NCBI RefSeq assembly: GCF_900108585.1
Contig: NZ_UESZ01000001.1
Span: 1,302,001-1,366,000, forward strand
DNA length: 64,000 nucleotides
From: Branchiibius hedensis
Lineage (GTDB): Bacteria > Actinomycetota > Actinomycetes > Actinomycetales > Dermatophilaceae
Direction of reading: 5' to 3'
Shown: positions 17,020 to 31,036 of the stretch, one piece after another
Numbering within the stretch: the stretch's first letter is position 1
Layout: each line of letters begins with the position of its first letter
Program-made: the position numbers and the translations under genes
Notes under the pieces: model-generated
What the model saw: only the letters and a program-made list of their open reading frames with translations
The model's database searches: none
Told to the model about the DNA's origin: nothing

Positions 17020-17356
17020 CCGCCACCAATCGCGCGGTCACCTCCCGCATCACCCCGGCCCGTTCAGTCTGACCGGCGGTTTCCAAAGCCACCGCGGCGG
17101 CCTCCCGCTCCGCGATCTCGGATCTGACCAGGGCTTCGATGTCCTCCTCGGTGAGTTCCCGGCGCGGCGCTTCGGCAGCACCCGCTCCGGCCGCACTGGC
17201 CTCGATAGCCCCGGCTCGTGGCGCTTCGACGCCCTCGGACGATGCGTTGTCGATAGCGGACAGGGTGCTGCGCAGCGCTGCGACCAGGTCGCGGTCACGC
17301 GCGTTCATCGCCGTCCGCAACTGCGCCCGGAGCCGACCGACGAGCGGAGCGGTCAT
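17003..17356 (-). CDS. GatB/YqeY-like protein
   Basis: Protein of 117 residues. LRAQLRTAMNARDRDLVAALRSTLSAIDNA is the typical N-terminus of YqeY (quoted here as two adjoining motifs, LRAQLRTAMNARDRD and LVAALRSTLSAIDNA). REL-TEEDIEALVRSEIAER follows, after an Ala-rich insertion of about 25 residues that most YqeY proteins lack. YqeY is related to the tRNA-binding tail of GatB; its role is unclear. The ATG overlaps the glgA stop by 4 bp, so it is probably co-translated with glgA. Confidence 0.78.
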   Translation of the reverse strand: MTAPLVGRLRAQLRTAMNARDRDLVAALRSTLSAIDNASSEGVEAPRAGAIEASAAGAGAAEAPRRELTEEDIEALVRSEIAEREAAAVALETAGQTERAGVMREVTARLVAAIRPE

Positions 17357-18555
17357 CGCAGGACGGACTCGTAGACCTCGACAGTACGCCGCGCGATCGC
17401 CTCCCAGCCGAAGTCCGAGATGGCCCGTTCCCGGCCCGCGATCCCCCGGCGCCGCGCCTCGGCTGGATCCGAAACTGCTTGCGCCAGAGCAGAACTCAGA
17501 TCCGCGACGAAGGTCGCCGGCGACACCGGTGTCCCCGTCCCGTCCGACACCTGCTCGATCGGCACCAGCCACCCGGTCTGCCCGTCCAGCACCACCTCCG
17601 GGATGCCACCAGTCGCGGTCCCGACGACCGGCAACTCGCAGGCCATCGCCTCGAGATTCACGATGCCCAACGGCTCGTAGATCGACGGACACACGAAAAC
17701 CGTTGCGGCAGAGAGCAACGCCACGATCTGGGGACGCGGCAACATCTCGGTGATCCAGAAGACGCCGTCCCGCGACGACCGCAGCCCCGCCACCAGCGAC
17801 TCCACCTCGGCAAGGATCTCGGGGGTGTCCGGTGCCCCCGCACAGAGGATGATCTGCACCTCTGGCGGCAACGACGCGACCGCCTGCAGTAGGTAGGGCA
17901 AGCCCTTCTGCCGGGTGATCCGACCGACGAAGATTACGCTCGGACGCGACGGATCCACCCCCACCGATTCGACGAAGGACACTGCCGTCGATGAGACGTC
18001 TCGCGCCCACTCCTCGGTGTCAATTCCGTTGTGCACCACGTGAACCCGTGCCGGGTCGAGGGACGGATACGAGGCCAGCACATCTTTGCGCATGCCGTCG
18101 CTGACGGCGATCACGGCGTCCGCCCCCAGGTAGGCGGTCTTCTCCACCCAGGAGGACACGGCGTACCCACCACCGAGTTGCTCGGCCTTCCACGGCCGCA
18201 GTGGCTCCAGGCTGTGCGCGGTGATCACGTGCGGTACACCGTGCAGCAACGAGGCCAGGTGCCCGGCCATGTTGGCGTACCAGGTGTGCGAGTGCACCAC
18301 GGAAGCCCCGCCGCAGTCGGCCGCCATCGTGAGGTCGACACCCAGCGTCTGCAGCGTGGCGTTCGCCGCGGCGAGTTCTGGCAGGTCGGCGTACGACGAG
18401 GTGTCGGCCTCGTCCCGCGGCCCACCGAAGGCGCGGACCTGGGTCTCGATGTCGAGTGCCCGCAGGGCCTTCACCAACTCCGTCACGTGCACGCCGGCGC
18501 CACCGTAGATGGTCGGTGGGTATTCCTTGGTCAGTACGTCGATCCTCACCCGCAT
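17353..18555 (-). CDS. glgA: Actinobacterial-type glycogen synthase / alpha-glucosyltransferase
   Basis: GT-B glycosyltransferase of 400 residues. The N-terminus has KEYPPTIYGGAGVHV with the glycine-rich donor/acceptor loop. The C-terminal domain has FVGRITRQKGL and the retaining-enzyme motif EPLGIVNLEAMA with its two Glu residues. This is the compact actinobacterial form. In mycobacteria the orthologue (GlgM) makes maltose 1-phosphate from ADP-glucose for the GlgE route; which activity applies here cannot be seen. It is transcribed away from glgC, its ADP-glucose supplier, across a 66-bp gap. The ATG at 18555 is preferred over an upstream in-frame start. Confidence 0.92.
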   Translation of the reverse strand: MRVRIDVLTKEYPPTIYGGAGVHVTELVKALRALDIETQVRAFGGPRDEADTSSYADLPELAAANATLQTLGVDLTMAADCGGASVVHSHTWYANMAGHLASLLHGVPHVITAHSLEPLRPWKAEQLGGGYAVSSWVEKTAYLGADAVIAVSDGMRKDVLASYPSLDPARVHVVHNGIDTEEWARDVSSTAVSFVESVGVDPSRPSVIFVGRITRQKGLPYLLQAVASLPPEVQIILCAGAPDTPEILAEVESLVAGLRSSRDGVFWITEMLPRPQIVALLSAATVFVCPSIYEPLGIVNLEAMACELPVVGTATGGIPEVVLDGQTGWLVPIEQVSDGTGTPVSPATFVADLSSALAQAVSDPAEARRRGIAGRERAISDFGWEAIARRTVEVYESVLR

Positions 18556-18609
18556 GACGCTAGTCCAAACGGCGGGATCCAAACAGCGACAGATACGCCC
18601 GTGGCGGCA

Positions 18610-18615
18610 TAGGTT
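18610..18615 (+). promoter_or_regulatory. Promoter of glgC-serB-cphB-cphA (leaderless -10)
   Basis: TAGGTT ends 6 bp before the ATG at 18622. A -35-like GCGACA lies at 18586-18591 with an 18-bp spacer. TCCAAAC occurs twice as a direct repeat (18564-18570 and 18578-18584) just upstream, a possible regulator site in the glgA/glgC divergent gap. Confidence 0.5.
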
Positions 18616-18621
18616 GTGGCC

Positions 18622-19872
18622 ATGGCGAGACGAAGCGGTCTACGAGTTCTGGCGATCGTCCTTGCGGGCGGCGAGGGCAAACGGTTGATGCCACTGACGG
18701 CAGACCGGGCCAAACCGGCGGTCCCCTTCGGCGGCATCTATCGCCTGATCGACTTCGCGCTGACCAATGTCGCGCACAGCGGCTATCTGCAGATGGTCGT
18801 GCTGACGCAGTACAAGTCGCACAGTCTCGACCGGCACATCAGTAAGACGTGGCGGTTGTCCAGCATGCTGGACAACTACGTGACCCCGGTGCCGGCGCAA
18901 CAGCGCCGCGGGAAGAGCTGGTACTCCGGATCAGCCGATGCGATCTACCAGAGCCTGAACCTGATCTACGACCACAAACCGGACATCGTGGTCGTCGTCG
19001 GGGCCGACCACGTCTACCGGATGGACTTCAGCCAGATGGTGATGCGGCACGTGGAGAACGGTGCCGCGGCCAGCGTCGCCGCGATCCGTCAGCCGATCAG
19101 CCTTGCCGACCAGTTCGGCGTGATCGAACTCTCCGACACGGGCGACGACAAGATCGCCGCCTTCCGCGAAAAGCCATCTGACCCAAAGCCGTTGGCCGAC
19201 GCACCCCATGAGGTTCTGGCCTCGATGGGCAACTACGTTTTCGATGCCGACGCCCTCGTCAAGGCCGTGCTCGAGGACGCGAAAGACGACGACAGCAAGC
19301 ACGACATGGGCGGCAACATCATCCCGGCGTTCGTCGATCGTGGTGAGGCCTATGCCTACGACTTCAAGGACAACGAGATCCCGGGCGCGACCGAACGCGA
19401 CCGCGGCTACTGGCGTGACGTCGGCACGTTGGACTCCTACTACGAGGCCCACATGGACCTGGTGTCCATCCACCCGGTGTTCAACGTCTACAACTACGAC
19501 TGGCCGATCCTGACCAACGACGGCTCCTTCCCGCCGGCGAAGTTCGTGATGGGTGCCGAACAACTCCAGGGTGTTGCTACCGGTTCGATGATCTCCCCCG
19601 GCTGCATCATCAGCGGGTCCAGCATCGATGAGTCCGTGCTCGGTCTCAACGTGCACACGCACAGCCGCTCCAGCATTCGCGGCTCGGTCATCCTGGACGG
19701 CGTCGATGTGGGTCGCGACTGCGTCATCGAGCGCGCCATCATCGACAAGGAAGTGCGGGTGCCCGCCGGCGTCACGATCGGCGTCGATCACGAGCAGGAC
19801 CGGGCGCGCGGGTTCACGGTCACGGACTCCGGTATCACCGTGGTCGGCAAAGGCACCATCATTGAGGGGTGA
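18622..19872 (+). CDS. glgC: Glucose-1-phosphate adenylyltransferase (ADP-glucose pyrophosphorylase)
   Basis: Makes ADP-glucose from glucose 1-phosphate and ATP, the first committed step of glycogen synthesis. Length 416 residues. Nucleotidyltransferase motifs: [32 protein letters not shown] and [22 protein letters not shown] binds glucose 1-phosphate. The C-terminus is a left-handed beta-helix ([20 protein letters not shown] and on). An in-frame GTG lies 6 bp upstream, but the -10 geometry favours the ATG at 18622. The stop overlaps the serB start by 4 bp. Confidence 0.95.
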
Positions 19873-20789
19873 CCGCTGCCCTTATCGTCATCCTCGCCGC
19901 TGACCCTGCCGCTCTTGAAGCCGCCCAGTCCGACGTACGCCGAGTGGTCGCCTCCGTGGGCGGCGGCACCGATGCGTGGACGAAGCTGACGGATCGGCCC
20001 CTCACAGCGGTCTCCACCCAGGTCACCGGCACGGACATCACCGCACTGCGGACGGTACTGGCGCAGGTCGCCACCAATCACGAGGTCGACCTGGCTGTCA
20101 CGGACGTTGTGATGCACACCGCGGGTCCCGGTTTGCTGATCATGGACGTCGACAGCACCTTGATCCAGCAGGAAGTGATCGAGCTCCTGGCTGCACACGC
20201 CGGCCGCGAACGCGAGGTTGCCGTCGTCACCGAGCGCGCCATGCGCGGTGAACTCGATTTCGCGCAGTCCCTCCAGCAGCGGGTCGCCGCACTGGTGGGG
20301 CTACCCGAGAGCGTGTTCGAGCAGGTCCGCCGGCAGGTCCAACTCAGTCCCGGCGCCCGCAATCTGATCACGACGGCCAAGGAGCATGGCTTCATCGTCG
20401 CCGTCGTCTCCGGCGGTTTCATTGAGGTCGTGGGTCCACTGGCCGCTGACCTGGGCATCGATCACGCCCGCGCCAACGCGCTGGAGGTGCGCGACGGCGT
20501 ACTCACCGGTCGCACCACCGGACCGATCATCGACCGGGCCGCCAAGGCCGCCACCCTGCGCGAGTTGGCGACAGCGCATGGCATCCCGCTGGAGCGCACC
20601 GTCGCGGTCGGTGACGGCGCCAACGACCTGGACATGCTCGCCGCGGCCGGACTGGGGATCGCCTACAACGCCAAGCCGATCGTGCGCGAGCAGGCCCACG
20701 CGGCCCTCAACCAGCCCCATCTGGACAGCGTCCTGTTCATGCTCGGTCTCGCCGCCGACCGGCACTCCCTACACTCGGTCCATGACTGA
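19869..20789 (+). CDS. serB: Phosphoserine phosphatase
   Basis: HAD-superfamily phosphatase of 306 residues, the last step of serine synthesis. An ACT-like N-terminal region of about 85 residues precedes the catalytic [16 protein letters not shown], where the first Asp is the nucleophile. The Ser motif is [16 protein letters not shown] and motif IV is [18 protein letters not shown]. The start GTG lies in the glgC stop and the 3' end overlaps cphB by 8 bp. This places a serine-synthesis enzyme inside a storage-polymer gene run. Confidence 0.93.
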
Positions 20790-21687
20790 GGACCGCGAAG
20801 CAGACGCGACCGAAGCCCCCCGCACCCTGCTCATCATCGGCGGCGCCGAGGACAAGGTCGGCCGCGTGACCATCCTGCGCCGGTTCGTCCGGCTCGCCGG
20901 CGGGCGCGCTGCCAACATCGTCATCATCCCGACCGCCTCCTCCGTCCCCGACGAGGTCGTGTCGGTCTACTCCACGGTGTTCAGCCGCCTCGGAGTCCAG
21001 GACATCGGCGCGGTCAACCCGCCGTCCCGCAGCGCCAGTAGTGACCCGGATCTGGTCGCCCGCCTGGACCAGGCCACCGGCGTGTTCCTTTCCGGCGGTA
21101 ACCAGTTGCGGTTGTCCCAGCTCGTCGTCGGTACCCCCATGGGCGAAGCACTGTTGCGCGCCTACCGCCGGGGAGCGGTCATCGCCGGCACCAGTGCCGG
21201 CGCCTCGATCATGAGCCAGTTCATGATCTCGATGGGTGAGGAAGGGGTCACACCCCGACAACGCTCGAGCCAGTTGACCGTGGGGCTGGGGCTGCTCACC
21301 GGGGTCATCGTCGACCAGCACTTCGACCAGCGCGCCCGCTACGGCCGGCTGATGTCCCTGGTGGCCGGCTCCCCCAGCCTGCTCGGGATGGGGATCGACG
21401 AGGACACCGCCGCTGAGATCCGCGATGAGACCGAACTGACCGTCGTCGGGTCCGGCGCCGTGTTCGTCGTCGACGCGCGGTCGGCCATCACGGATGCTCA
21501 CGAGGCCAAACGTGATGCGCCGCTGCTGGTTTCGGGCGCCGTCGTGCATTCGCTGCCGTTCGGTGCGACGTTCGATCTGACCACCGCGACCCTGACCCAC
21601 TTCGTCGAGAAGAACGCCGACATCTCGGTGTCCTTCAGCCGCGACCGGCACGACACCGCCGCCGCTGCCGCCGCCCTGCGCCACTGA
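20782..21687 (+). CDS. cphB: Cyanophycinase
   Basis: Serine-type exopeptidase of the S51 family, 301 residues, which cleaves cyanophycin (multi-L-arginyl-poly-L-aspartate) to beta-Asp-Arg dipeptides. The N-terminus has LLIIGGAEDK. The nucleophile Ser is in VIAGTSAGASIMS, in the GTSAGA elbow of cyanophycinases, and FLSGGNQLRL and VDQHFDQRAR are also typical. No signal peptide is present, so the enzyme should be cytoplasmic. The ATG overlaps serB by 8 bp and cphA follows after 15 bp. Confidence 0.94.
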   Translation: MTEDREADATEAPRTLLIIGGAEDKVGRVTILRRFVRLAGGRAANIVIIPTASSVPDEVVSVYSTVFSRLGVQDIGAVNPPSRSASSDPDLVARLDQATGVFLSGGNQLRLSQLVVGTPMGEALLRAYRRGAVIAGTSAGASIMSQFMISMGEEGVTPRQRSSQLTVGLGLLTGVIVDQHFDQRARYGRLMSLVAGSPSLLGMGIDEDTAAEIRDETELTVVGSGAVFVVDARSAITDAHEAKRDAPLLVSGAVVHSLPFGATFDLTTATLTHFVEKNADISVSFSRDRHDTAAAAAALRH

Positions 21688-21690
21688 TCC

Positions 21691-21695
21691 GGAGG
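21691..21695 (+). promoter_or_regulatory. Ribosome binding site that fixes the TTG start of cphA
   Basis: GGAGG lies 7 bases before TTG at 21703. No ATG or GTG upstream of the conserved IAERRVYRGPN segment competes, so a TTG start is the best reading. Confidence 0.6.
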
Positions 21696-21702
21696 CCCCA
21701 CG

Positions 21703-24560
21703 TTGTCCCGTCCCGAACGACCCGAACCGTCCGGCCCACCGGCCCCAGAACTCACCATCGCCGAGCGGCGCGTCTACCGCGGCCCCAATGTCTGGTCCTT
21801 CGAGCAGGCAATCCATCTGGTCGTCGACCTGGGGGTGCTCGAGTCCTACCCCACCGACACGCTGCCCGGTTTCACCGATCGACTTCTTGAGGCCCTCCCA
21901 GCCCTCGCCGAACACACCTGCTCCCGTGGCTACCGCGGCGGCTTCGTCGAACGTCTGCGGGAAGGGACCTGGCTGGGTCACGTCACCGAGCACGTGGCGC
22001 TGCAACTGCAGCAGGAGGCGGGCCACGACATGCGCCGCGGCAAGACCCGCGCGGTCAAGGACGTTCCGGGCCGTTACAACATCGTCTTCGGGTACGTCGA
22101 TGAGCGGGTTGGTCTCGCGGCCGGCGAACTGGCCGTGCGACTGGTCAACGACCTGGTCGAGCACGATCCCGACTTCGACTGGACGACCGAGCGGGACGAC
22201 TACCTCCGGTTGGCTGCCCGCACCGCCTTCGGTCCGTCCACCGCGGCCATCCTCGAGGAAGCGGTCAGCCGGGACATCCCGTGGACCCGGTTGAACCAGT
22301 ATTCGCTGATCCAACTGGGTCAGGGCGTGCACCAGCAGCGGATCCGCGCCACGATGACCTCGCAGACGTCCGCGTTGGCAGTCGACATCGCCGGCGACAA
22401 GAACCTCACCACCACCTTGCTCGGCTCCGCAGGTCTACCGGTGCCGAAGGCGGAGACGGTGCGTTCAGAGGACGCCGCCGTGCGGGCCGCCCGCCGGATT
22501 GGCTACCCCGTCGTGGTCAAACCGTTGGACGGCAACCACGGCCGGGGGTCTGCCTCAACCTGCGCTCGGAGGAAGACATCCGGGAGGCCTTCCCCGTCGC
22601 CGAGGCGGAGTCGCGCCGGGGTGTGGTCCAGGTCGAGTCCTTCATCACCGGGAAGGACTACCGCTGCCTGATCATCGACGGTCACATGGCCGCCATCGCC
22701 GAACGCGTTCCGGCCCACGTGATGGGCGACGGGGAGCACTCGGTCACCGAACTGGTCGACATCACCAACGCCGACCCGCGCCGCGGGGTCGGCCACGAGA
22801 AGGTGCTGACCCGGATCCGGGTCGACGATGCCGCCGTCGAGTTGGTGGCCGACCAGGGGTACGCGATGAGCGACATTCCGCCCAAGGGCGAGATGGTCAA
22901 ACTCGCCCTCACCGGCAACATGTCGACCGGAGGCATTTCGGTGGACCGCACGTTCGATGCGCACCCCGACAACGTCGAGATCGCCGAAGAGGCCGCCCGG
23001 GTCATCGGTCTGGATGTCGCCGGTATCGACTTCATCTGTCCCGACATCACAGCGCCCGTCCGGGAGACCGGCGGTGCGATCTGTGAGGTCAACGCCGCTC
23101 CGGGCTTCCGCATGCACACCCACCCGACCGTCGGTGAGCCGCAGTTCATCGCCAAACCGGTCGTCGACCTGCTCTTCCCGCCGGGGAGCCCGGCACGGGT
23201 GCCGATCGTCGCGGTCACCGGCACGAACGGCAAGACCACCACTTCCCGGATGCTCGCGCACATCATGAAGGGCATGGGTCGCAAGGTGGGGATGACCTCC
23301 ACGGACGGCATCGTCATCGATGAGCGTCTGCTGATCAAAGCCGACGCCTCCGGTCCGCGGTCGGCGCGGATGGTGCTGCAGAACCCGCGGGTCGATTTCG
23401 CCGTCCTGGAGGTCGCGCGCGGCGGGATCCTGCGCGAGGGCCTGGGTTACGACCGCAACGACATCGCCGTGGTCACCAACATCGCGGCCGATCACCTTGG
23501 TACTCGTGGGATCGAGACGTTGCAGGATCTGGCGAACGTGAAATCCGTGGTGGTCGAGGCGGTTCCGCGGGACGGTTTCGCTGTCCTGAACGCCGACGAT
23601 GACCTGGTCCGGGCGATGCGGCGGCGGTGCAGCGGCACGGTGGTGTGGTTCTCGATGGAGCCGCCGGGGAGCCGGATCCGCGAATTCATCGACGACCGCT
23701 GCCGGCGTGGTGCCCGAGCCGTCGTCCTCGAACCAACCGATCGCGGCGAGATGATCGTCCTGAAGCAAGGCCGCCGCTCGATGCCGTTGGCCTGGACACA
23801 CCTGTTGCCCTCCACCTTCGGCGGCGCCGCCCGGATGAACGTTGCCAACGCATTGGCCGCCGCTGGAGCGGCGTTCGCCGCGGGGGCTCCGCTGCATGAC
23901 ATCCGGCAGGGTTTGCGGACCTTCACCACGTCGTACTACCTGTCCCCCGGACGTCTGAACAAGGCCGAGATCAACGGCTGCGACGTTTTCGTCGACTACT
24001 GCCACAACCCACCCGGTATGCGGGAGCTGGGTGAATTCGTGGAGCGGTACGCCGCGCAGAAGGAGCGCTCGGTCGAGCACCCGGTGACGCGCATCGGGAT
24101 GATCGGTGCCCCGGGCGACCGTCGCGACGCCGACATCATGGAATTGGGCACCATCGCCGCCCAGCACTTCGACGTCCTGGTGGTGCGCGAGGACGAGAAC
24201 CTGCGGCGCCGGGAGAAGGGTGTCTCCGCCGAACTGCTCGCCGAAGGTATCGAGGCAGCCATTGCGGACGGCGCCCGTTGCCAGACCGTCGTCACCGTGC
24301 TCGATGAGCTCGAAGCTACCCGTGAGGCGATGAATCGGGCCCGCCCCGGCGACCTCGTGGTGCTGTGCGTCGACCAGCACGCCAAGGTCGTCGCCGAATT
24401 GGAGGACTACACCAACCAGGCCGGCGCCGGATCGCGCACCACCGAATGGCAGCCGGGCGACCCCGACCTCGATCCGCGGGAGCTGTCCGACCAGGCCGCC
24501 CTGCAGTCTGCGCAAGACGAAGAGGACCTGCGCAAAGTCCTGGAGGACCAGGAGCCGTAG
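21703..24560 (+). pseudogene. cphA: Cyanophycin synthetase with a one-base frameshift
   Basis: CphA polymerises Asp and Arg into cyanophycin using an ATP-grasp domain and a Mur-ligase-type domain. The first 281 codons (ending PVVVKPLDGNHGRG) are in one frame; the rest, resuming at CLNLRSEEDIREAF, is in another. The break is the G5 tract at 22544-22548: one more G restores GRGVCLNLR and an uninterrupted 952-residue protein. As written, the first frame stops at 22671. The Mur P-loop TGTNGKTTT (about restored residues 506-514), LEVARGGILREGLG and the C-terminal domain are intact, so the break is recent or a sequencing error. TTG at 21703 is the start, 7 bases after GGAGG (21691-21695). Confidence 0.88.
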
Positions 24561-24563
24561 ACG

Positions 24564-26714
24564 TCAGCAGATCGCGTCGGTGAACCGGCGCAGCGACGAC
24601 GGGTAGCGAGCCACGTCCGGGTCCGTCGAGCCGGCCAGCGCCGCGCGCAGAACGTCGCGCAGCGCCTCGGCGTCGCGATCGAGGTCGTGCAGCGTGAATG
24701 CACGGAATGCCTGCACGACAACGCTGTTCGGGCGTTCCTCGGCCAACGCATCCAGGATCGCCAGCGAGTCCTCCAGCCGCCCGAGGTGCCGCAGCGTGCT
24801 CGCCTTCTGGATCAGCGCCCGGTGTCGGAACGGTTCGTTCAGGCCGCCGTCGATGGCGAGGTCGTAGTGGCCCAGCGCTTCCTGCTCAAGACCTGCGCTG
24901 TCGAAGGTTCCGGCGTACTCGTACCGCAGCCGGGCGTCTTCCGGATGCTGCGCCACCAAAGCCGCCGCGCGCTCGATGCGCAACCGGTCGTCCTCGATCG
25001 TCCACAGGTCATCGATCGCCGCGTCCAACTCGTGCCGACCCGCTGCGGTGAGGACCTTGCGCCGGATGGCCGCAGCATCGTCCTCGTGACCCCCCTGCGC
25101 GATCAGCCAGTCGTGCAGTGTCGCGCGGTCTTCGTGGGTCATCAGAGCAACGACATCACCGGGCCGGGACTGCTCCAGAAGGGTTGCCAGAGCTGAGGGT
25201 TCGTCGTCACTCAGACCGATCGGGACAGCGCCGGCGCGGGCCAGTCCCTCCCGCATCAGGCCCATCATCTCGTCCTTGTTGCGGTCGCGCAGGTAGTGCT
25301 CCTTGTGGACCAGCAGCACCTGATCGGCGACCAGTCCCGCCTGCTCGCCCAGGTTGACCAGGATCTCGTCGGTGCGGTCGCCACCGGTGCCCAGTCCCAG
25401 CCACAACTCGGCTCCTGGTGGACGCAGCCCCGAAGCGACCGTCAGCAGCGCCGCCAGCCCGGCCTCGTTGTGGGCCATATCCAGCACGACCGTCGCCTCC
25501 CGCAGGGAGTAGATGTTCATCCGGCCCGGGTTGTGGGCGACGTCCGGCGCGAACGTGCGCAGTCCCTCGATCACGGCCTCCCGCGGCAGACCGGCGGCCA
25601 GCCCAGCGGCGGCACCGGCGAGGGCATTGGCGACGTTCTGCTCGGACAGTCCGGCCAGCGTGATCGGTACGTCGAGGACGTTGATCAACCGCTCGAGTTC
25701 ACCGTGCTCGTCGATCGTGACGATGTCCCCGTCGAGCACCGTGATGCCGCGACCACGCACCGCCTGTGACTCGCGCAGAGCAGGAGAGTCGGGGCTCAGA
25801 CTGAAACACCACGGTGGGGCCGGTGCCGTTGCCCGCATGGTCCACACCCTCGGGTCGTCGCCGTTCAGCACCACCCAGCCGGAGGTGACCTTCGTGACGA
25901 TCGCCTTCACCTCGGCCAACTGGTCGAGCGTGTCGACTCCCTGCATGCCGAGGTGATCGGCACTGACGTTGGTGACGACGCTGACATCGTTGGTCGCCAC
26001 TCCAAGACCTTTGAACAGCATTCCGCCACGGGCGGTTTCGAGGACCGCGAACTCGACACCGGGTGCGGTCAGCACCGTCCGGGCACCCGCGGGGCCGGAG
26101 TAGTCACCGGAGACGACCACGTCCCCCTGGACCAAGACACCGTCGGTCGAGCTCCACCCGGTGCGCAGTCCCGCCGTCATCGCCAGGTGCGCGATCAGCC
26201 GCGTCGTGGTGGTCTTCCCGTTGGTTCCCGTCACGGAGACGGTCGGCACCTGGGGCGTGATCGGCTCCAGCAGCTCATCGGCGGGCGCACCGCGCACGGT
26301 CGCTGCCGCCTGCGTCCAGACCCCCGGATCCAACCCGTCCTCGATGGCCGCGTCCAACACCGAACCCAGGGCCGTGCCCAGGGCCTGTGCGCGGCCCCGG
26401 CTGCGGACCGGGCAGGCCAGGACGACCTGGTGCGGCTGCTCACCCGATCGCACGCGGATCCCCAGTCTGGTGATTCCCGCCTCCCGTGAGATCCGCCGCA
26501 CCACCGGCGGCAACAGACTCATCAGGGCGCGTTGGCGGGCGGCGCTGTCCGGCGCCCCGACGACCGATCGCCGTACGCCGAGTTCACTGGCCAGGACCAG
26601 GAAGCGTGCCGGAGGGCAGGAGAGCAACTCTGGAAGGTCCAGCGTGAGTTTGGCTGCGGGGCGGGGAAAGTAGAGGTTCGGCCCTTCCAGGACCCGCACC
26701 GCAACTCGCGTCAT
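24564..26714 (-). CDS. CphA-like Mur ligase without ATP-grasp domain, fused to a TPR domain
   Basis: Protein of 716 residues. Residues 1-150 resemble the CphA N-domain (RVLEGPNLYFPRP, compare RVYRGPN in CphA). The Mur ligase core follows: P-loop TGTNGKTTT (162-170), STDGVLV, LETARGGMLFKGLG, VSADHLGMQG and LDMAHNEAG. Pairwise likeness to the CphA Mur half is strong, but the ATP-grasp domain of about 270 residues is absent. Residues 568-716 match a small free-standing actinobacterial TPR protein family (LRYEYAGTFDSAGLEQEALG, then ASTLRHLGRLEDSLAILDAL). Its end is 3 bp from the convergent cphA. Expected to be an ATP-dependent peptide ligase; the substrate is unknown. Confidence 0.85.
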   Translation of the reverse strand: MTRVAVRVLEGPNLYFPRPAAKLTLDLPELLSCPPARFLVLASELGVRRSVVGAPDSAARQRALMSLLPPVVRRISREAGITRLGIRVRSGEQPHQVVLACPVRSRGRAQALGTALGSVLDAAIEDGLDPGVWTQAAATVRGAPADELLEPITPQVPTVSVTGTNGKTTTTRLIAHLAMTAGLRTGWSSTDGVLVQGDVVVSGDYSGPAGARTVLTAPGVEFAVLETARGGMLFKGLGVATNDVSVVTNVSADHLGMQGVDTLDQLAEVKAIVTKVTSGWVVLNGDDPRVWTMRATAPAPPWCFSLSPDSPALRESQAVRGRGITVLDGDIVTIDEHGELERLINVLDVPITLAGLSEQNVANALAGAAAGLAAGLPREAVIEGLRTFAPDVAHNPGRMNIYSLREATVVLDMAHNEAGLAALLTVASGLRPPGAELWLGLGTGGDRTDEILVNLGEQAGLVADQVLLVHKEHYLRDRNKDEMMGLMREGLARAGAVPIGLSDDEPSALATLLEQSRPGDVVALMTHEDRATLHDWLIAQGGHEDDAAAIRRKVLTAAGRHELDAAIDDLWTIEDDRLRIERAAALVAQHPEDARLRYEYAGTFDSAGLEQEALGHYDLAIDGGLNEPFRHRALIQKASTLRHLGRLEDSLAILDALAEERPNSVVVQAFRAFTLHDLDRDAEALRDVLRAALAGSTDPDVARYPSSLRRFTDAIC

Positions 26715-26720
26715 GGGTCC

Positions 26721-26726
26721 AGCGTA
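26721..26726 (-). promoter_or_regulatory. Putative -10 of the Mur ligase/TPR gene (leaderless)
   Basis: TACGCT on the minus strand, 6 bp before the ATG at 26714. It lies in the 17-bp gap after fabI, so the gene may have its own promoter as well as read-through from fabG-fabI. Confidence 0.4.
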
Positions 26727-26731
26727 GGCGG

Positions 26732-27493
26732 CTACTGGCCCATCGCGTGCACACCGCCATCGACGTGCACGATCTCACCGGTCGTGGCCGGGAACCAGTC
26801 CGACAGCAACGCCACGCAGGCGCGCGCAGCGGGTTCTGGATCGCGCACATCCCACCCGAGGGGGGCGCGCGTGGACCAGGTGTTCTCGAACTGCTCGAAA
26901 CCGGGGATCGACTTGGCCGCGGTTGTCCGGATCGGACCCGCAGCGACCAGATTGCACCGGACCCCGCGCGGACCGAGATCGCGCGCCAGGTAGCGGTTCG
27001 TCGACTCGAACGCCGCTTTGGCGACTCCCATCCAGTCGTACACCGGCCAGGCGAACTTGGCATCGAAGGTCAACCCCACCACCGACGAACCCTGTTGCAG
27101 CACAGGCAGAGTCGCGACCGACAAGGCCTTGAGCGAGTACGCCGAGGCGTGCAGGGCCGTCGCGACGTCCTCCCAGGTGCCGCTGAGGAAGTCGAACGCG
27201 CCCGGTGGGGCGAAACCGATCGAGTGCAGCACCCCGTCCAGGCCGTCGACGTGCTCGCCGAGACGTTCGGCGAGCGAGTCCAGGTCCTCTTGGGAGGTCA
27301 CGTCGAGTTCCAGCACCGGCGGTGTCTGCGGCAGTCGCTTGGCGATGGTCTGGGTGATCTTCATCGTTCGGCCGAAGGAGGTGAGCACCACCTGCGCCCC
27401 CTCTTCCTGGGCCAACCGGGCCACGTGGAAGGCGATGGAGGAGTCCATCAGGACCCCGGTGATCAGCAGGCGTTTGCCCTCGAGCAGACCCAT
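26732..27493 (-). CDS. fabI: Enoyl-[acyl-carrier-protein] reductase (FabI/InhA type)
   Basis: NADH-dependent enoyl-ACP reductase of 253 residues, the last step of each fatty acid elongation cycle. SDR fold: nucleotide loop ITGVLMDSSIAFHVARLA, LHSIGFAPPGAF, and catalytic Tyr/Lys in YDWMGVAKAA (Tyr-X6-Lys spacing, as in InhA). AAGPIRTTAAKSIPGF is the substrate-loop region. The ATG at 27493 comes one base after the fabG stop; the longer frame upstream is inside fabG. Confidence 0.94.
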   Translation of the reverse strand: MGLLEGKRLLITGVLMDSSIAFHVARLAQEEGAQVVLTSFGRTMKITQTIAKRLPQTPPVLELDVTSQEDLDSLAERLGEHVDGLDGVLHSIGFAPPGAFDFLSGTWEDVATALHASAYSLKALSVATLPVLQQGSSVVGLTFDAKFAWPVYDWMGVAKAAFESTNRYLARDLGPRGVRCNLVAAGPIRTTAAKSIPGFEQFENTWSTRAPLGWDVRDPEPAARACVALLSDWFPATTGEIVHVDGGVHAMGQ

Positions 27494-27494
27494 C

Positions 27495-28250
<756 letters not shown>

Positions 28251-28286
28251 CTACTGGGGGGTAGTCCCTATCGGCGACCCGGCGCC

Positions 28287-28292
28287 TATCCT
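28287..28292 (+). promoter_or_regulatory. Putative -10 of the DUF3099 gene (leaderless)
   Basis: TATCCT ends 6 bp before the GTG at 28299. With the fabG element it makes a 66-bp divergent leaderless pair. Confidence 0.45.
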
Positions 28293-28298
28293 GAACGG

Positions 28299-28589
28299 GT
28301 GAGTGACAAGCCCAGCGTGCCGTCGGCAACGAATCTGCCGGCGTCGCCCAAGGGCGACCAGTCCATCCGGATGCGTAACTACACCATCTCGATGACGATT
28401 CGAACGCTGTGCTTCGTGCTGGCGATCTTCACCCATGGCTGGATCCGGTGGGTTTTCGCGATCGCGGCCATTCTGCTGCCCTACGTCGCCGTTGTGCTCG
28501 CCAACGCGAGTAATCAACGGCGCGTCGATGTCCGCGGTTCGGTGCGACCGCGACGGGCCGACCAGCAGTTGCCCTCCGGCCGATCCTGA
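28299..28589 (+). CDS. DUF3099-like small membrane protein
   Basis: Protein of 96 residues with a polar N-terminus, two hydrophobic segments (TLCFVLAIFTHGWIRWVFAI and ILLPYVAVVLANA) and a basic tail (RPRRADQQ). The pattern MRNYTISMTIRTLCF, followed by a helix ending in LLPYVAVVLAN, is that of DUF3099, a widespread actinobacterial membrane protein of unknown role. Confidence 0.7.
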   Translation: MSDKPSVPSATNLPASPKGDQSIRMRNYTISMTIRTLCFVLAIFTHGWIRWVFAIAAILLPYVAVVLANASNQRRVDVRGSVRPRRADQQLPSGRS

Positions 28590-28664
28590 CGGGCACTGTC
28601 GGGAGTTCTCCGCCGAGTTGCGGGGCGAGTGGCCCTGTGCGCCATTGCGTGCCACGATCAAGGC

Positions 28665-29186
28665 ATGTCCAAAAACCTCCTGCTCACCGCCGCCTCAACC
28701 GTCGCCGCCGCCGCGGTGCTCTCAGCGTGCGGCTCATCCGTCACCGTCAACCCCACCGCCACCGGTGCAGGTACGACTACGACCACCTCCCAGGCACCGA
28801 CCGAAACCACCACCAGCGACACCCCGAGCGAAACCACCACCAGCGAGATGCCGAGCGAGACCACCACCTCGGAGACCAGTTCCGAGGCACCGACGTCGAC
28901 CAGCACCGCCGCGCCGAGCCCGTCGACCAGCGTCGACGCGATTCACAAGGCCGCGTTCCTGAAGGTGGTGAAGCAGCGCTTCCCCACGATCACCGACGAA
29001 GCCGCGCTGGCGGATGGCCAGTGGGTCTGCGGCGAAATGGGCCAGGACAAGAACATCCTGACGGTCATCGGCGACCTGAAGGACAAGCACCCCGACTGGA
29101 GCACCACCAACGCCGGCTACTTCCTCGGCGTGTCCATCGGTGCCCTGTGCCCGCAGTACACCTCCAAGGTGACGGCCGGCGCCTGA
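28665..29186 (+). CDS. Lipoprotein with DUF732-like domain
   Basis: Protein of 173 residues. A lipoprotein signal (MSKNLLLTAASTVAAAAVLSAC) places the lipobox Cys at residue 22. A Thr/Ser/Glu linker with a 9-residue repeat (ETTTSDTPS, ETTTSEMPS, ETTTSETSS) spaces the domain from the membrane. The C-terminal 80 residues resemble DUF732: AAFLKVVKQRFP, one Cys in GQWVCGEMG and one in IGALCPQY, probably disulphide-bonded outside the cell. Function is unknown. The ATG at 28665 is set by the signal peptide. Confidence 0.8.
   Translation: MSKNLLLTAASTVAAAAVLSACGSSVTVNPTATGAGTTTTTSQAPTETTTSDTPSETTTSEMPSETTTSETSSEAPTSTSTAAPSPSTSVDAIHKAAFLKVVKQRFPTITDEAALADGQWVCGEMGQDKNILTVIGDLKDKHPDWSTTNAGYFLGVSIGALCPQYTSKVTAGA
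28803..28883 (+). repeat. Three 27-bp tandem repeats in a lipoprotein linker
   Basis: Units at 28803-28829, 28830-28856 and 28857-28883 encode ETTTSDTPS, ETTTSEMPS and ETTTSETSS. The first two are nearly identical at DNA level and the third has diverged. The copy number may vary between strains. Confidence 0.7.
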
Positions 29187-29204
29187 TCGCAGTCAGCGGC
29201 GCGG

Positions 29205-30182
29205 TCAGCCGCCAATGCTCGACATCGGCCGCTCGGGTTGCACGAAATCCGGGCGGCCGATCCCGTGTCCACGGGCTTTGCGCCACATGGTTGCGCGGAT
29301 GATGGCGACCAGTTCCTCGTCGCTTGCGCCGGCCCGCAGGGGGTCGCGCAGGTTGCCCTCATCCTGCGCGAACAGGCAGTTGCGCACTTGCCCGTCAGCG
29401 GTCAGCCGCACCCGGTCACACGATCCGCAGAACGGCGCGGTGACGCTGGCAATGATTCCGACGGTCGCTGGTCCACCGTCCACGGTGAACCGTTCGGCCG
29501 GCGCACTGCCCCGCTCCTGCACCGGCGTCAGCCCGAAGGTCTTCCCCAACGTGGCCAGCAATTCATCCCTGGTCAGCATGGTGGCGCGATCCCAGGTGTG
29601 CCCGGCGTCCAGCGGCATCTGCTCGATGAACCGCAGGTTGTAGCCGCGGTCCACGCACCACGAGAGCAGCCGGACCGGGTCTTCCCCGTCCCGGGTCGCG
29701 ACCGCATTGACCTTCACCGGCAGTAGATCGGCATCGGCTGCCGCCTTGAGCCCGCGCTCCACGTCGTGGAACCGATCGCGCCGGGTCAACCGCGCATAGA
29801 TCTGGGGGTCGACGGCGTCCAAGGACACGTTGACCCGGTTCAGACCCGCTTCGGCCAGTGGCTCGGCCAACCGGTCGAGGCCGATCCCGTTGGTCGTCAA
29901 CGACAACTCGGGCCGCGGGGCCAAGCCGGCCAATCGGCGTACGACGCCCGGCAGTCCTCGGCGCAGCAGCGGCTCCCCGCCGGTCAAGCGGACCGACGTG
30001 ACACCCTCGGCGACGAACAGACCGACCACGCGCACCAACTCGTCATCGGTCAGGTGTTCGCTGCGCGGCAACCAGTTCAGACCCTCTTCGGGCATGCAGT
30101 AGGTGCAGCGGAGATTACAGCGGTCGGTGAGCGAGACCCGTAGGTCGGTCCCCACCCGACCGAACTGGTCGGCCAACGTCAT
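29205..30182 (-). CDS. moaA: GTP 3',8-cyclase (molybdenum cofactor biosynthesis)
   Basis: Radical SAM enzyme of 325 residues that starts molybdopterin synthesis from GTP. The N-terminal 4Fe-4S site is CNLRCTYC (CX3CX2C). The C-terminal second cluster is FCGSCDRVRLTADGQVRNC (CX2CX13C). The product ends in Gly-Gly, which is required for activity in the family. TAGGGT lies 7 bp before the ATG at 30182. moaC and other moa genes are not in the window. Confidence 0.95.
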   Translation of the reverse strand: MTLADQFGRVGTDLRVSLTDRCNLRCTYCMPEEGLNWLPRSEHLTDDELVRVVGLFVAEGVTSVRLTGGEPLLRRGLPGVVRRLAGLAPRPELSLTTNGIGLDRLAEPLAEAGLNRVNVSLDAVDPQIYARLTRRDRFHDVERGLKAAADADLLPVKVNAVATRDGEDPVRLLSWCVDRGYNLRFIEQMPLDAGHTWDRATMLTRDELLATLGKTFGLTPVQERGSAPAERFTVDGGPATVGIIASVTAPFCGSCDRVRLTADGQVRNCLFAQDEGNLRDPLRAGASDEELVAIIRATMWRKARGHGIGRPDFVQPERPMSSIGG

Positions 30183-30189
30183 AGGCCCC

Positions 30190-30195
30190 ACCCTA
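30190..30195 (-). promoter_or_regulatory. Putative -10 of moaA (leaderless)
   Basis: TAGGGT on the minus strand, 7 bp before the ATG at 30182. An in-frame GTG at 30191 falls inside this hexamer and is therefore unlikely to be the start. Confidence 0.45.
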
Positions 30196-30202
30196 TGCCG
30201 AG

Positions 30203-30208
30203 TAACGT
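30203..30208 (+). promoter_or_regulatory. Putative -10 of the SURF1 gene (leaderless)
   Basis: TAACGT ends 6 bp before the GTG at 30215. Confidence 0.45.
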
Positions 30209-30214
30209 CAGGGG

Positions 30215-31036
30215 GTGCTTGCGAAGCTGACCGAACGGCGGTGGCTGACCTGGTTGTTGGTCGCCACGGTCTGGGCCGTCGGTTGTTTCTTCCTCGGGTT
30301 GTGGCAGTGGCATCGCTTCAGTGACAAGCACACCGCCCAGGAACAACTGCACGTCAACTACGACGCCACCCCGGTTCCGTTGGCCGACGGCGTCGGCAGC
30401 GGCCGCAACTGGTTGCGGGTCACCATGACCGGCACCTACCTCGCCGATCAGCAGGTCCTGGCCCGCAACCGGCCCAACGACGGAGACTTCGGCTACGAGG
30501 TTCTCGTCCCCTTGCGGCTCACCTCCGCCGCGGATGGAGCAGGCATCGTGATCGTGGACCGCGGCTGGGTCCCCAACGGAGCGACGGCATCGGCGCCCGA
30601 CTCGGTGCCCGCCGTACCCTCCGGTCAGGTCACGGTCGTCGGCTGGCTTCGCCCGTTCGAACCCAATCTGGCTAAGCCGGCGGTCCCCCGCCAGGTGGCC
30701 TCGATCTATCTGCCCGACATCGTCGCGGCAGCCGGGCTGAGTGCGTCGGACGTGGTCAGCAGCAACTACGTCCTCATGCAATCGGAACGTACGGCGGCGG
30801 GCGACTCCCCCGCCCGACCCGCGGCGCTGCCCGAGCCGGACCCGGGCTCCTACGCCGGGATCAACCTGTCGTACGCGATCCAGTGGTGGATCGGCATGAT
30901 CGCCGGCTACGGGTTCGTGATCATGCGCGCCCGGCGGGAGCTGCGGGATGAACGCGCGCCGGCCACACCGCAGGCGAGCCCACCCCGGCCGGTCAAAGCC
31001 AAGAAGGTCCGGATCTGGGACGAGGAAGACGAGTAA
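30215..31036 (+). CDS. SURF1-family cytochrome oxidase assembly protein
   Basis: Membrane protein of 273 residues with helices near each end (WLTWLLVATVWAVGCFFLGL around 10-29; IQWWIGMIAGYGFVIM around 225-240) and an extracytoplasmic domain between them. SURF1 signatures: LGLWQWHR, DRGWVPNG and NLSYAIQWW. It assists insertion of heme a into cytochrome c oxidase. ctaA and ctaB lie about 14 kb away in this window. The C-terminal cytoplasmic tail is charged (KAKKVRIWDEEDE). Confidence 0.9.
   Translation: MLAKLTERRWLTWLLVATVWAVGCFFLGLWQWHRFSDKHTAQEQLHVNYDATPVPLADGVGSGRNWLRVTMTGTYLADQQVLARNRPNDGDFGYEVLVPLRLTSAADGAGIVIVDRGWVPNGATASAPDSVPAVPSGQVTVVGWLRPFEPNLAKPAVPRQVASIYLPDIVAAAGLSASDVVSSNYVLMQSERTAAGDSPARPAALPEPDPGSYAGINLSYAIQWWIGMIAGYGFVIMRARRELRDERAPATPQASPPRPVKAKKVRIWDEEDE

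Follow-up and report, generated by a model that had tools for sequence, protein, structure and literature searches.

In the window, as we refer to the whole 64,000-nucleotide stretch of Branchiibius hedensis DNA analysed here, the gene that faces the cyanophycin synthetase gene cphA encodes a CphA-related Mur ligase devoid of an ATP-grasp domain (the short Mur). Its sequence and predicted structure suggest, with moderate confidence, that it is an active, ATP-dependent, Mur-type amide ligase that acts on a cyanophycin-type peptide in partnership with CphA, and that either its donor or its acceptor, both of which we infer, probably differs from that of the Arg step of CphA. In the proposed reaction, the peptide would occupy the same groove between the N domain and the Mur core in which it has been modelled for CphA; one of its carboxylates would be phosphorylated at the expense of ATP, and the activated carboxylate would be joined to an amino compound held by the lid. 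The product would have a side chain that bears an amino acid other than Arg, or a chain end that is modified, and would be unlike the Asp side-chain-Arg bond, because invariant CphA residues around both acceptor and donor are replaced. We further propose, tentatively, that the short Mur represents a new family of cyanophycin-metabolism enzymes, a second, nearly obligate actinobacterial ligase that could cap the chain or give it side chains other than Arg.

Cyanophycin is a nitrogen-storage polymer, and if the actinobacteria that produce it rely on a second, conserved ligase, their polymer, or its turnover, would differ. Members of the family include former Tetrasphaera lineages of phosphorus-removing sludge, and the short Mur might serve as a tool with which to produce modified cyanophycin. 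No account of the protein was found in the literature searched, and to that extent the undescribed function anticipated by the initial annotation is borne out. The abstract of PMC9427784 attributes cyanophycin to one enzyme, CphA1; the word 'ligase' is absent from the text of PMC10206079, a survey of cyanophycin gene clusters, and 'Mur ligase' from that of PMC10687191, which deals with the Tetrasphaera cluster. The 12 Mur family members listed in PMC11915815 do not include the short Mur.

The features of the protein and of its two cyanophycin-related neighbours are collected in the table below. The mur and cphA genes lie tail to tail, separated by a 3-base gap. The frame switch in the cphA homology (within 22530-22570, near 22548) falls in a short G run, and may be genuine or else an error of sequencing or assembly.

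Table. Short Mur, its domains and the adjacent cyanophycin genes, in window positions
Feature	Position	Strand	Remarks
TPR-fused Mur ligase related to CphA, lacking the ATP-grasp domain	24564..26714	-	716 aa, ATG start
N domain, residues 1-150	26265..26714	-	remote CphA N-domain homologue, without Cx19HxxEH
Mur core, residues 151-395	25530..26264	-	ATP site and acceptor side
P-loop TGTNGKTT, residues 162-169	26208..26231	-	K167 corresponds to K499 of CphA1 (PMC9427784, section 10)
D253-H254	25953..25958	-	equivalent to SuCphA1 D585-H586 (PMC9262961)
Mur lid / C-terminal domain, residues 396-545	25080..25529	-	Pfam and predicted structure
Lid loop HKEHYLRDR, residues 470-478	25281..25307	-	proposed donor-specificity loop
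Linker and TPR domain, residues 546-716	24567..25079	-	TPR_5 match at residues 597-709 (24588-24926)
cphA	21703..24560	+	convergent partner; read in two frames, break near 22548
Cyanophycinase (cphB)	20782..21687	+	profile matches

Pfam recognizes Mur_ligase_M at residues 161-370 (E 2.9e-17), Mur_ligase_C at 397-525 (6.1e-11) and TPR_5 (PF12688; E 5.1e-21, 75.5 bits, above the cut-off of 24.2) as the sole matches at E 0.1, with none to a MurE-type N-terminal domain for the UDP-MurNAc substrate; no ATP-grasp family appears at E <= 0.1. Neither does PF18921, the Pfam model of the CphA N domain, match; hhalign does align the N domain with that of CphA (E 1.7e-5, probability 79%, 119 columns, in a single comparison run without a negative control), and the N domain is thus of the CphA type, albeit remote and with a weak sequence match. 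The best NCBIfam model is that of cyanophycin synthetase, TIGR02068, matched over model positions 476-850 only and with a score of 353 bits, where a CphA would need 850. The nearest solved chains are CphAs, aligned over residues about 137-524, and the neighbouring CphA is 40% identical over 146-529. These results agree with the initial annotation, which had described a CphA-type N domain, a Mur core close to that of CphA, the lack of an ATP-grasp domain and a fusion to a TPR domain.

The predicted model of the protein (mean pLDDT 92.1, pTM 0.85) superposes on the Trichodesmium enzyme TeCphA1 (7wae_A) from residue 1, with a Z of 54.2 and 520 residues aligned at 2.4 A over residues 1-541. The N and M domains of TeCphA1 are superposed together, the middle of the 877-residue CphA being skipped in the alignment, and this superposition indicates that the N and Mur domains of the predicted structure are placed relative to each other as in CphA, only without the intervening ATP-grasp domain. 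In section 10 of PMC9427784, a cyanophycin analogue is placed between the N domain and Mcore of CphA1. MurE (best superposition Z 32.9) and other Mur ligases are the next-best structures, and this shared fold is what speaks for a cell-wall ligase of the MurE or MurT kind. Such a role is exceedingly unlikely: other proteins of the genome exceed the curated cut-offs for MurC, MurD, MurE and MurF, the N domain is CphA-like, and across the surveys described below the short Mur was seen apart from CphA only in three incomplete genomes. A cell-wall ligase was rejected as the main reading, the typing having covered all of the eight Mur_ligase_M proteins in the genome but the one at 563 kb.

The short Mur is carried by many cyanophycin-making members of the Actinomycetota, the phylum within which all surveys were made. 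Relatives in many genera are 48-63% identical over almost their full length. Named members include Flexivirga, Knoellia, Phycicoccus, Ornithinimicrobium, Terrabacter, Tetrasphaera/Nostocoides and Arsenicicoccus, as well as Nocardioides, where the TPR is missing. Three partly overlapping sets were surveyed, and the family turned up in 28 of the 58 close genomes, in 24 of the 396 from the phylum and in 25 of the 296 from the class; from the genome scan, 80 relatives out of 245 were retained, and an order-level sample gave 17 of 248 at a threshold that hides CphA. A lone fusion produced by gene calling was rejected on the grounds of these relatives.

Wherever it occurs, the short Mur almost always accompanies CphA. 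The 58 relatives comprise 27 genomes with both proteins, 30 with neither, one with the short Mur only (58% complete) and none with CphA only; in the 36 that belong to the window's own family, the corresponding counts are 26, 9, 1 and 0 (Fisher test 1e-7, with kinship and linkage ignored). In the phylum set, 22 genomes have both (G419 as fragments), two the short Mur only (87% and 67% complete) and none CphA only, and in the class set the figures are 25, 0 and 5. Among 149 loci examined, some of them places fetched twice, 140 have the short Mur and 121 have it together with cphA; the two genes are convergent in all 121 (101 distinct), an arrangement that persists in some loci where unrelated genes lie between them. 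The 19 Mur loci without cphA consist of 14 short fetches (flanks of about 1.5 kb), two that lie near contig ends (L150, L155) and three longer ones, whose genomes all carry cphA elsewhere: 3 Mb away in Nostocoides jenkinsii, about 8 kb away in one Nocardioides, and on another contig in a Nocardioides MAG. One further locus (L083) falls below the 150-bit rule for the Mur, though its tail resembles it. The link to cyanophycin made in the initial annotation is thereby supported, with the qualification that physical linkage makes joint gain or loss likely even without a functional need. Two genomes of the Actinomycetes, G771 and G889, carry one CphA, no second copy and no short Mur at E 1e-40, so that CphA is able to do without it. 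The CphA of G889 (L174) is Acinetobacter/Tatumella-like and was probably acquired by transfer, and that of G771 (L173) has a long branch in the tree and is the only CphA row without D781. One MAG (G029; 84% complete, 4% contamination) contains two Mur-CphA pairs, on contigs C34 and C171 (L049, L061), and could be a strain mixture.

On the side of mur away from cphB-cphA (20782-24560, plus strand) lies an InhA/FabG-like pair, and the order within 17353-31036, in putative gene names, is glgA, glgC, serB, cphB, cphA, mur, inhA, fabG, moaA and surf1. This order recurs, whole or in part, in relatives. Matches to fabG and inhA occur in 107 and 106 of the 140 Mur loci, respectively, and inhA is immediately upstream of mur on the same strand in 69 loci (by a gap rule; duplicates are included in all three counts); since neither gene is found at the deeper-lineage Mur loci listed, the pair is taken as neighbourhood and not as function. 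Inspection of ten loci by eye revealed no shared gene between mur and cphA, and a promoter and terminator scan was uninformative. Section 3.3 of PMC10687191 gives the Tetrasphaera cluster as glgA, glgC, serB, cphB and cphA, genes that are also together in the window, and cphA with cphB is reported for 48 of 69 Tetrasphaera-group genomes in PMC9123174.

The residues of the active site were compared in an alignment of ORFs that cover most of the Mur core (139 Mur and 126 CphA; with additions, 140 and 136 rows), which correspond to 117 distinct Mur and 119 distinct CphA sequences, the duplicates being places fetched twice. Fourteen positions, namely K167, T168, T190, E226, R229, D253, H254, K270, N363, R398, D412, H415, D446 and R447, are each found in 117 of 117 distinct Mur sequences. 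The ATP- and Mg-binding residues listed for TeCphA1 in section 10 of PMC9427784 (K499, T500, T522, E558, R731 and H748) are kept in the Mur as K167, T168, T190, E226, R398 and H415, and the SuCphA1 pair D585-H586 is the one changed in a published M-minus mutant (PMC9262961). This invariance bears on the idea that the protein has no catalytic role and instead regulates or scaffolds CphA or the granule, with the TPR serving for docking. The TPR fusion of one clade fits that idea, and the retained N-M arrangement could pair with CphA oligomers; full conservation of ATP and catalytic residues is not expected of a dead paralogue, however, and deeper members have no TPR, which makes a scaffold very improbable.

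The substrate side of the pocket is different. CphA residues S542, R566, R778 and Y746 are each present in 119 of 119 distinct CphA sequences, and D781 in 118; in the 117 distinct Mur sequences, S542 is always replaced (G210), R566 is R in just 6, Y746 is Y in 15, and neither R778 nor D781 is kept in any. At the position of E800, 115 of 117 have K, L or A, and D801 (117 of 119 distinct CphA) corresponds to Mur position 472, which is variable yet acidic in 54 of 117. Conversely, R289, N395 and Y474 are Mur-only invariants (117 of 117 distinct). The lid loop reads HKEHYLRDR in the window protein as opposed to [RK]ED..LRxR or similar in most CphAs examined, and by analogy with MurE structures, this loop (470-478) is presumably the binding place of the amino acid to be added. 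Kept ATP and catalytic residues together with changed pocket positions are most readily read, at the level of sequence, as an active ligase of changed specificity.

The same data bear on whether the short Mur could simply help CphA, performing the M-domain reaction by adding Arg (or Lys) onto bare Asp side chains and so repairing or finishing the polymer. Its top similarity is to CphA M domains, its chemistry residues are conserved, and its gene is linked to cphA; nevertheless, several substrate-side residues invariant in CphA are missing from every one, or almost every one, of the 117 distinct Mur sequences, so that an unchanged Arg reaction, merely stripped of backbone extension, is not the obvious interpretation. 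An intact-looking M domain is, besides, retained by the CphAs that share a genome with the short Mur. We consider a helper of this kind rather unlikely. Trimming of cyanophycin, an option raised in the initial annotation, did not find support, because Mur ligases form bonds and the hydrolytic motif of the N domain is missing: Cx19HxxEH is absent from the N domain of the short Mur, HxxEH being found in 3 of 140 Mur ORFs and always behind the P-loop. This motif also weighs on the notion that the short Mur supplies CphA with a starting primer or dipeptide, which it would make by linking Asp to Arg or by lengthening beta-Asp-Arg units. According to PMC9262961, CphA1 needs at least (beta-Asp-Arg)-Asp as a primer, and the motif is present in 83% of CphA1s at 70% non-redundancy. 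Primer-generating Cx19HxxEH is carried by the window CphA and, among CphA ORFs longer than 800 aa, by 113 of 117 (92 of the 95 distinct ones), so that most CphAs should need no outside primer, and the pocket changes do not point to Arg, which renders a primer maker quite improbable. A CphA partner that forms some bond other than the Asp side-chain-Arg bond thus stays our preferred reading.

The TPR domain is not essential to the family, but a lineage-limited addition. Of the 140 Mur ORFs, 86 match it (68 of the 116 distinct ones) and 54 (48 distinct) do not; the latter include every fetched Nocardioides locus and deeper lineages, three of the 54 rows being partial ORFs (L080-L082). The initial annotation regards the module as a separate small actinobacterial protein as well; no TPR_5 protein besides the window protein was detected in the genome at E 0.001, nor any separate TPR gene among the ORFs of the fetched loci with TPR-less members (E 1e-3). 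Where it occurs, in the Dermatophilaceae and in a second family (f5), the TPR is a late add-on that probably acts as a docking module. Two members inside the TPR-bearing clade (L058, 9360-11282, and L059, 9254-11458) have a TPR that is either cut short or no longer recognisable.

In a tree of 66 Mur domains, built from one representative per 75% identity (37 Mur, 14 CphA) and named additions, the 38 short Mur are separated from all 24 CphA rows by a branch with support values of 95/97 that recurs in 100% of the 200 bootstrap trees. The root is uncertain, with one outgroup row kept, on a very long branch, and a second dropped as too weak; on account of that branch, the tree is compatible both with loss of the ATP-grasp domain and with an ancestral N-plus-Mur protein. 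The short Mur may preserve a design that predates the insertion of ATP-grasp into CphA.

A possible natural stand-in for the short Mur is provided by family f99, in which all three genomes sampled have two CphAs and no Mur (E 1e-40). The second CphAs of the first two genomes are the only 2 of 136 rows in which D801 is lost and R occupies position 289, the first copy keeping D801 without R at 289; both changes were predicted for the third genome before its sequence was read, and were then found. In all three second copies (L169, L172, L198) the lid loop has PS.. in place of RED. Among 260 columns nearly invariant in CphA, the three copies depart jointly from the other CphAs at just four: D801, a single position of the G domain, a conservative I/V exchange and a gap in the tail. 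They retain R778, D781 and an intact-looking ATP-grasp domain, and are therefore not of the same architecture as the short Mur. The sequences would be consistent with a replacement pattern, counted here as a single supporting case since the three genomes may share one event.

Among known systems, the N-plus-M proteins encoded on plasmids of Legionella adelaidensis and Deinococcus deserti also combine a CphA-type N domain with a Mur ligase and no Pfam ATP-grasp match. Their pockets, unlike that of the short Mur, are CphA-like at S542, R566, R778 and D781, the Legionella protein retains Cx19HxxEH (by eye), and both nest inside CphA in the tree, which indicates separate losses of ATP-grasp. On the Legionella plasmid (NZ_LR134428.1; L191, 3353-5221) the N-plus-M gene is followed by a cyanophycinase and an isoaspartyl peptidase, and none of the six features displayed around the gene is a full CphA. 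Deinococcus plasmids carry an extra CphA-like Mur whose ATP-grasp match is missing or weak (L189, 4176-6350; L196, 3936-6452; L190, 4735-7234); in L190 it comes after cphA, isoaspartyl peptidase and cyanophycinase, and is split into two annotated genes. MurE shares the fold of the Mur core and lid, whereas the N domain of the short Mur is CphA-like, identity to MurE is about 24%, and the window protein scores 94 bits against a TIGR01085 cut-off of 257.3, as compared to 448.7 for the genome's own MurE. CphA2 works through its ATP-grasp half, its Mur half being dead, and the short Mur is the reverse, with the Mur half intact and ATP-grasp absent. Cyanobacterial CphA2, a CphA relative that polymerises beta-Asp-Arg dipeptides, has an N domain without the peptidase motif (PMC9262961), a trait that it shares with the short Mur. 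CphA1 (TIGR02068; 7wae, 7lgq, 7lg5) offers the same arrangement of N domain, Mur core and lid, the ATP and catalytic residues, and a gene near which that of the short Mur lies; it differs in its ATP-grasp G domain and N-domain Cx19HxxEH, neither of which the short Mur has, in the S542, R566, R778 and D781 that are replaced there, and in falling outside the short Mur clade. The short Mur is not a CphA; sequence and model together suggest a ligase that would work by the Mur half of CphA chemistry.
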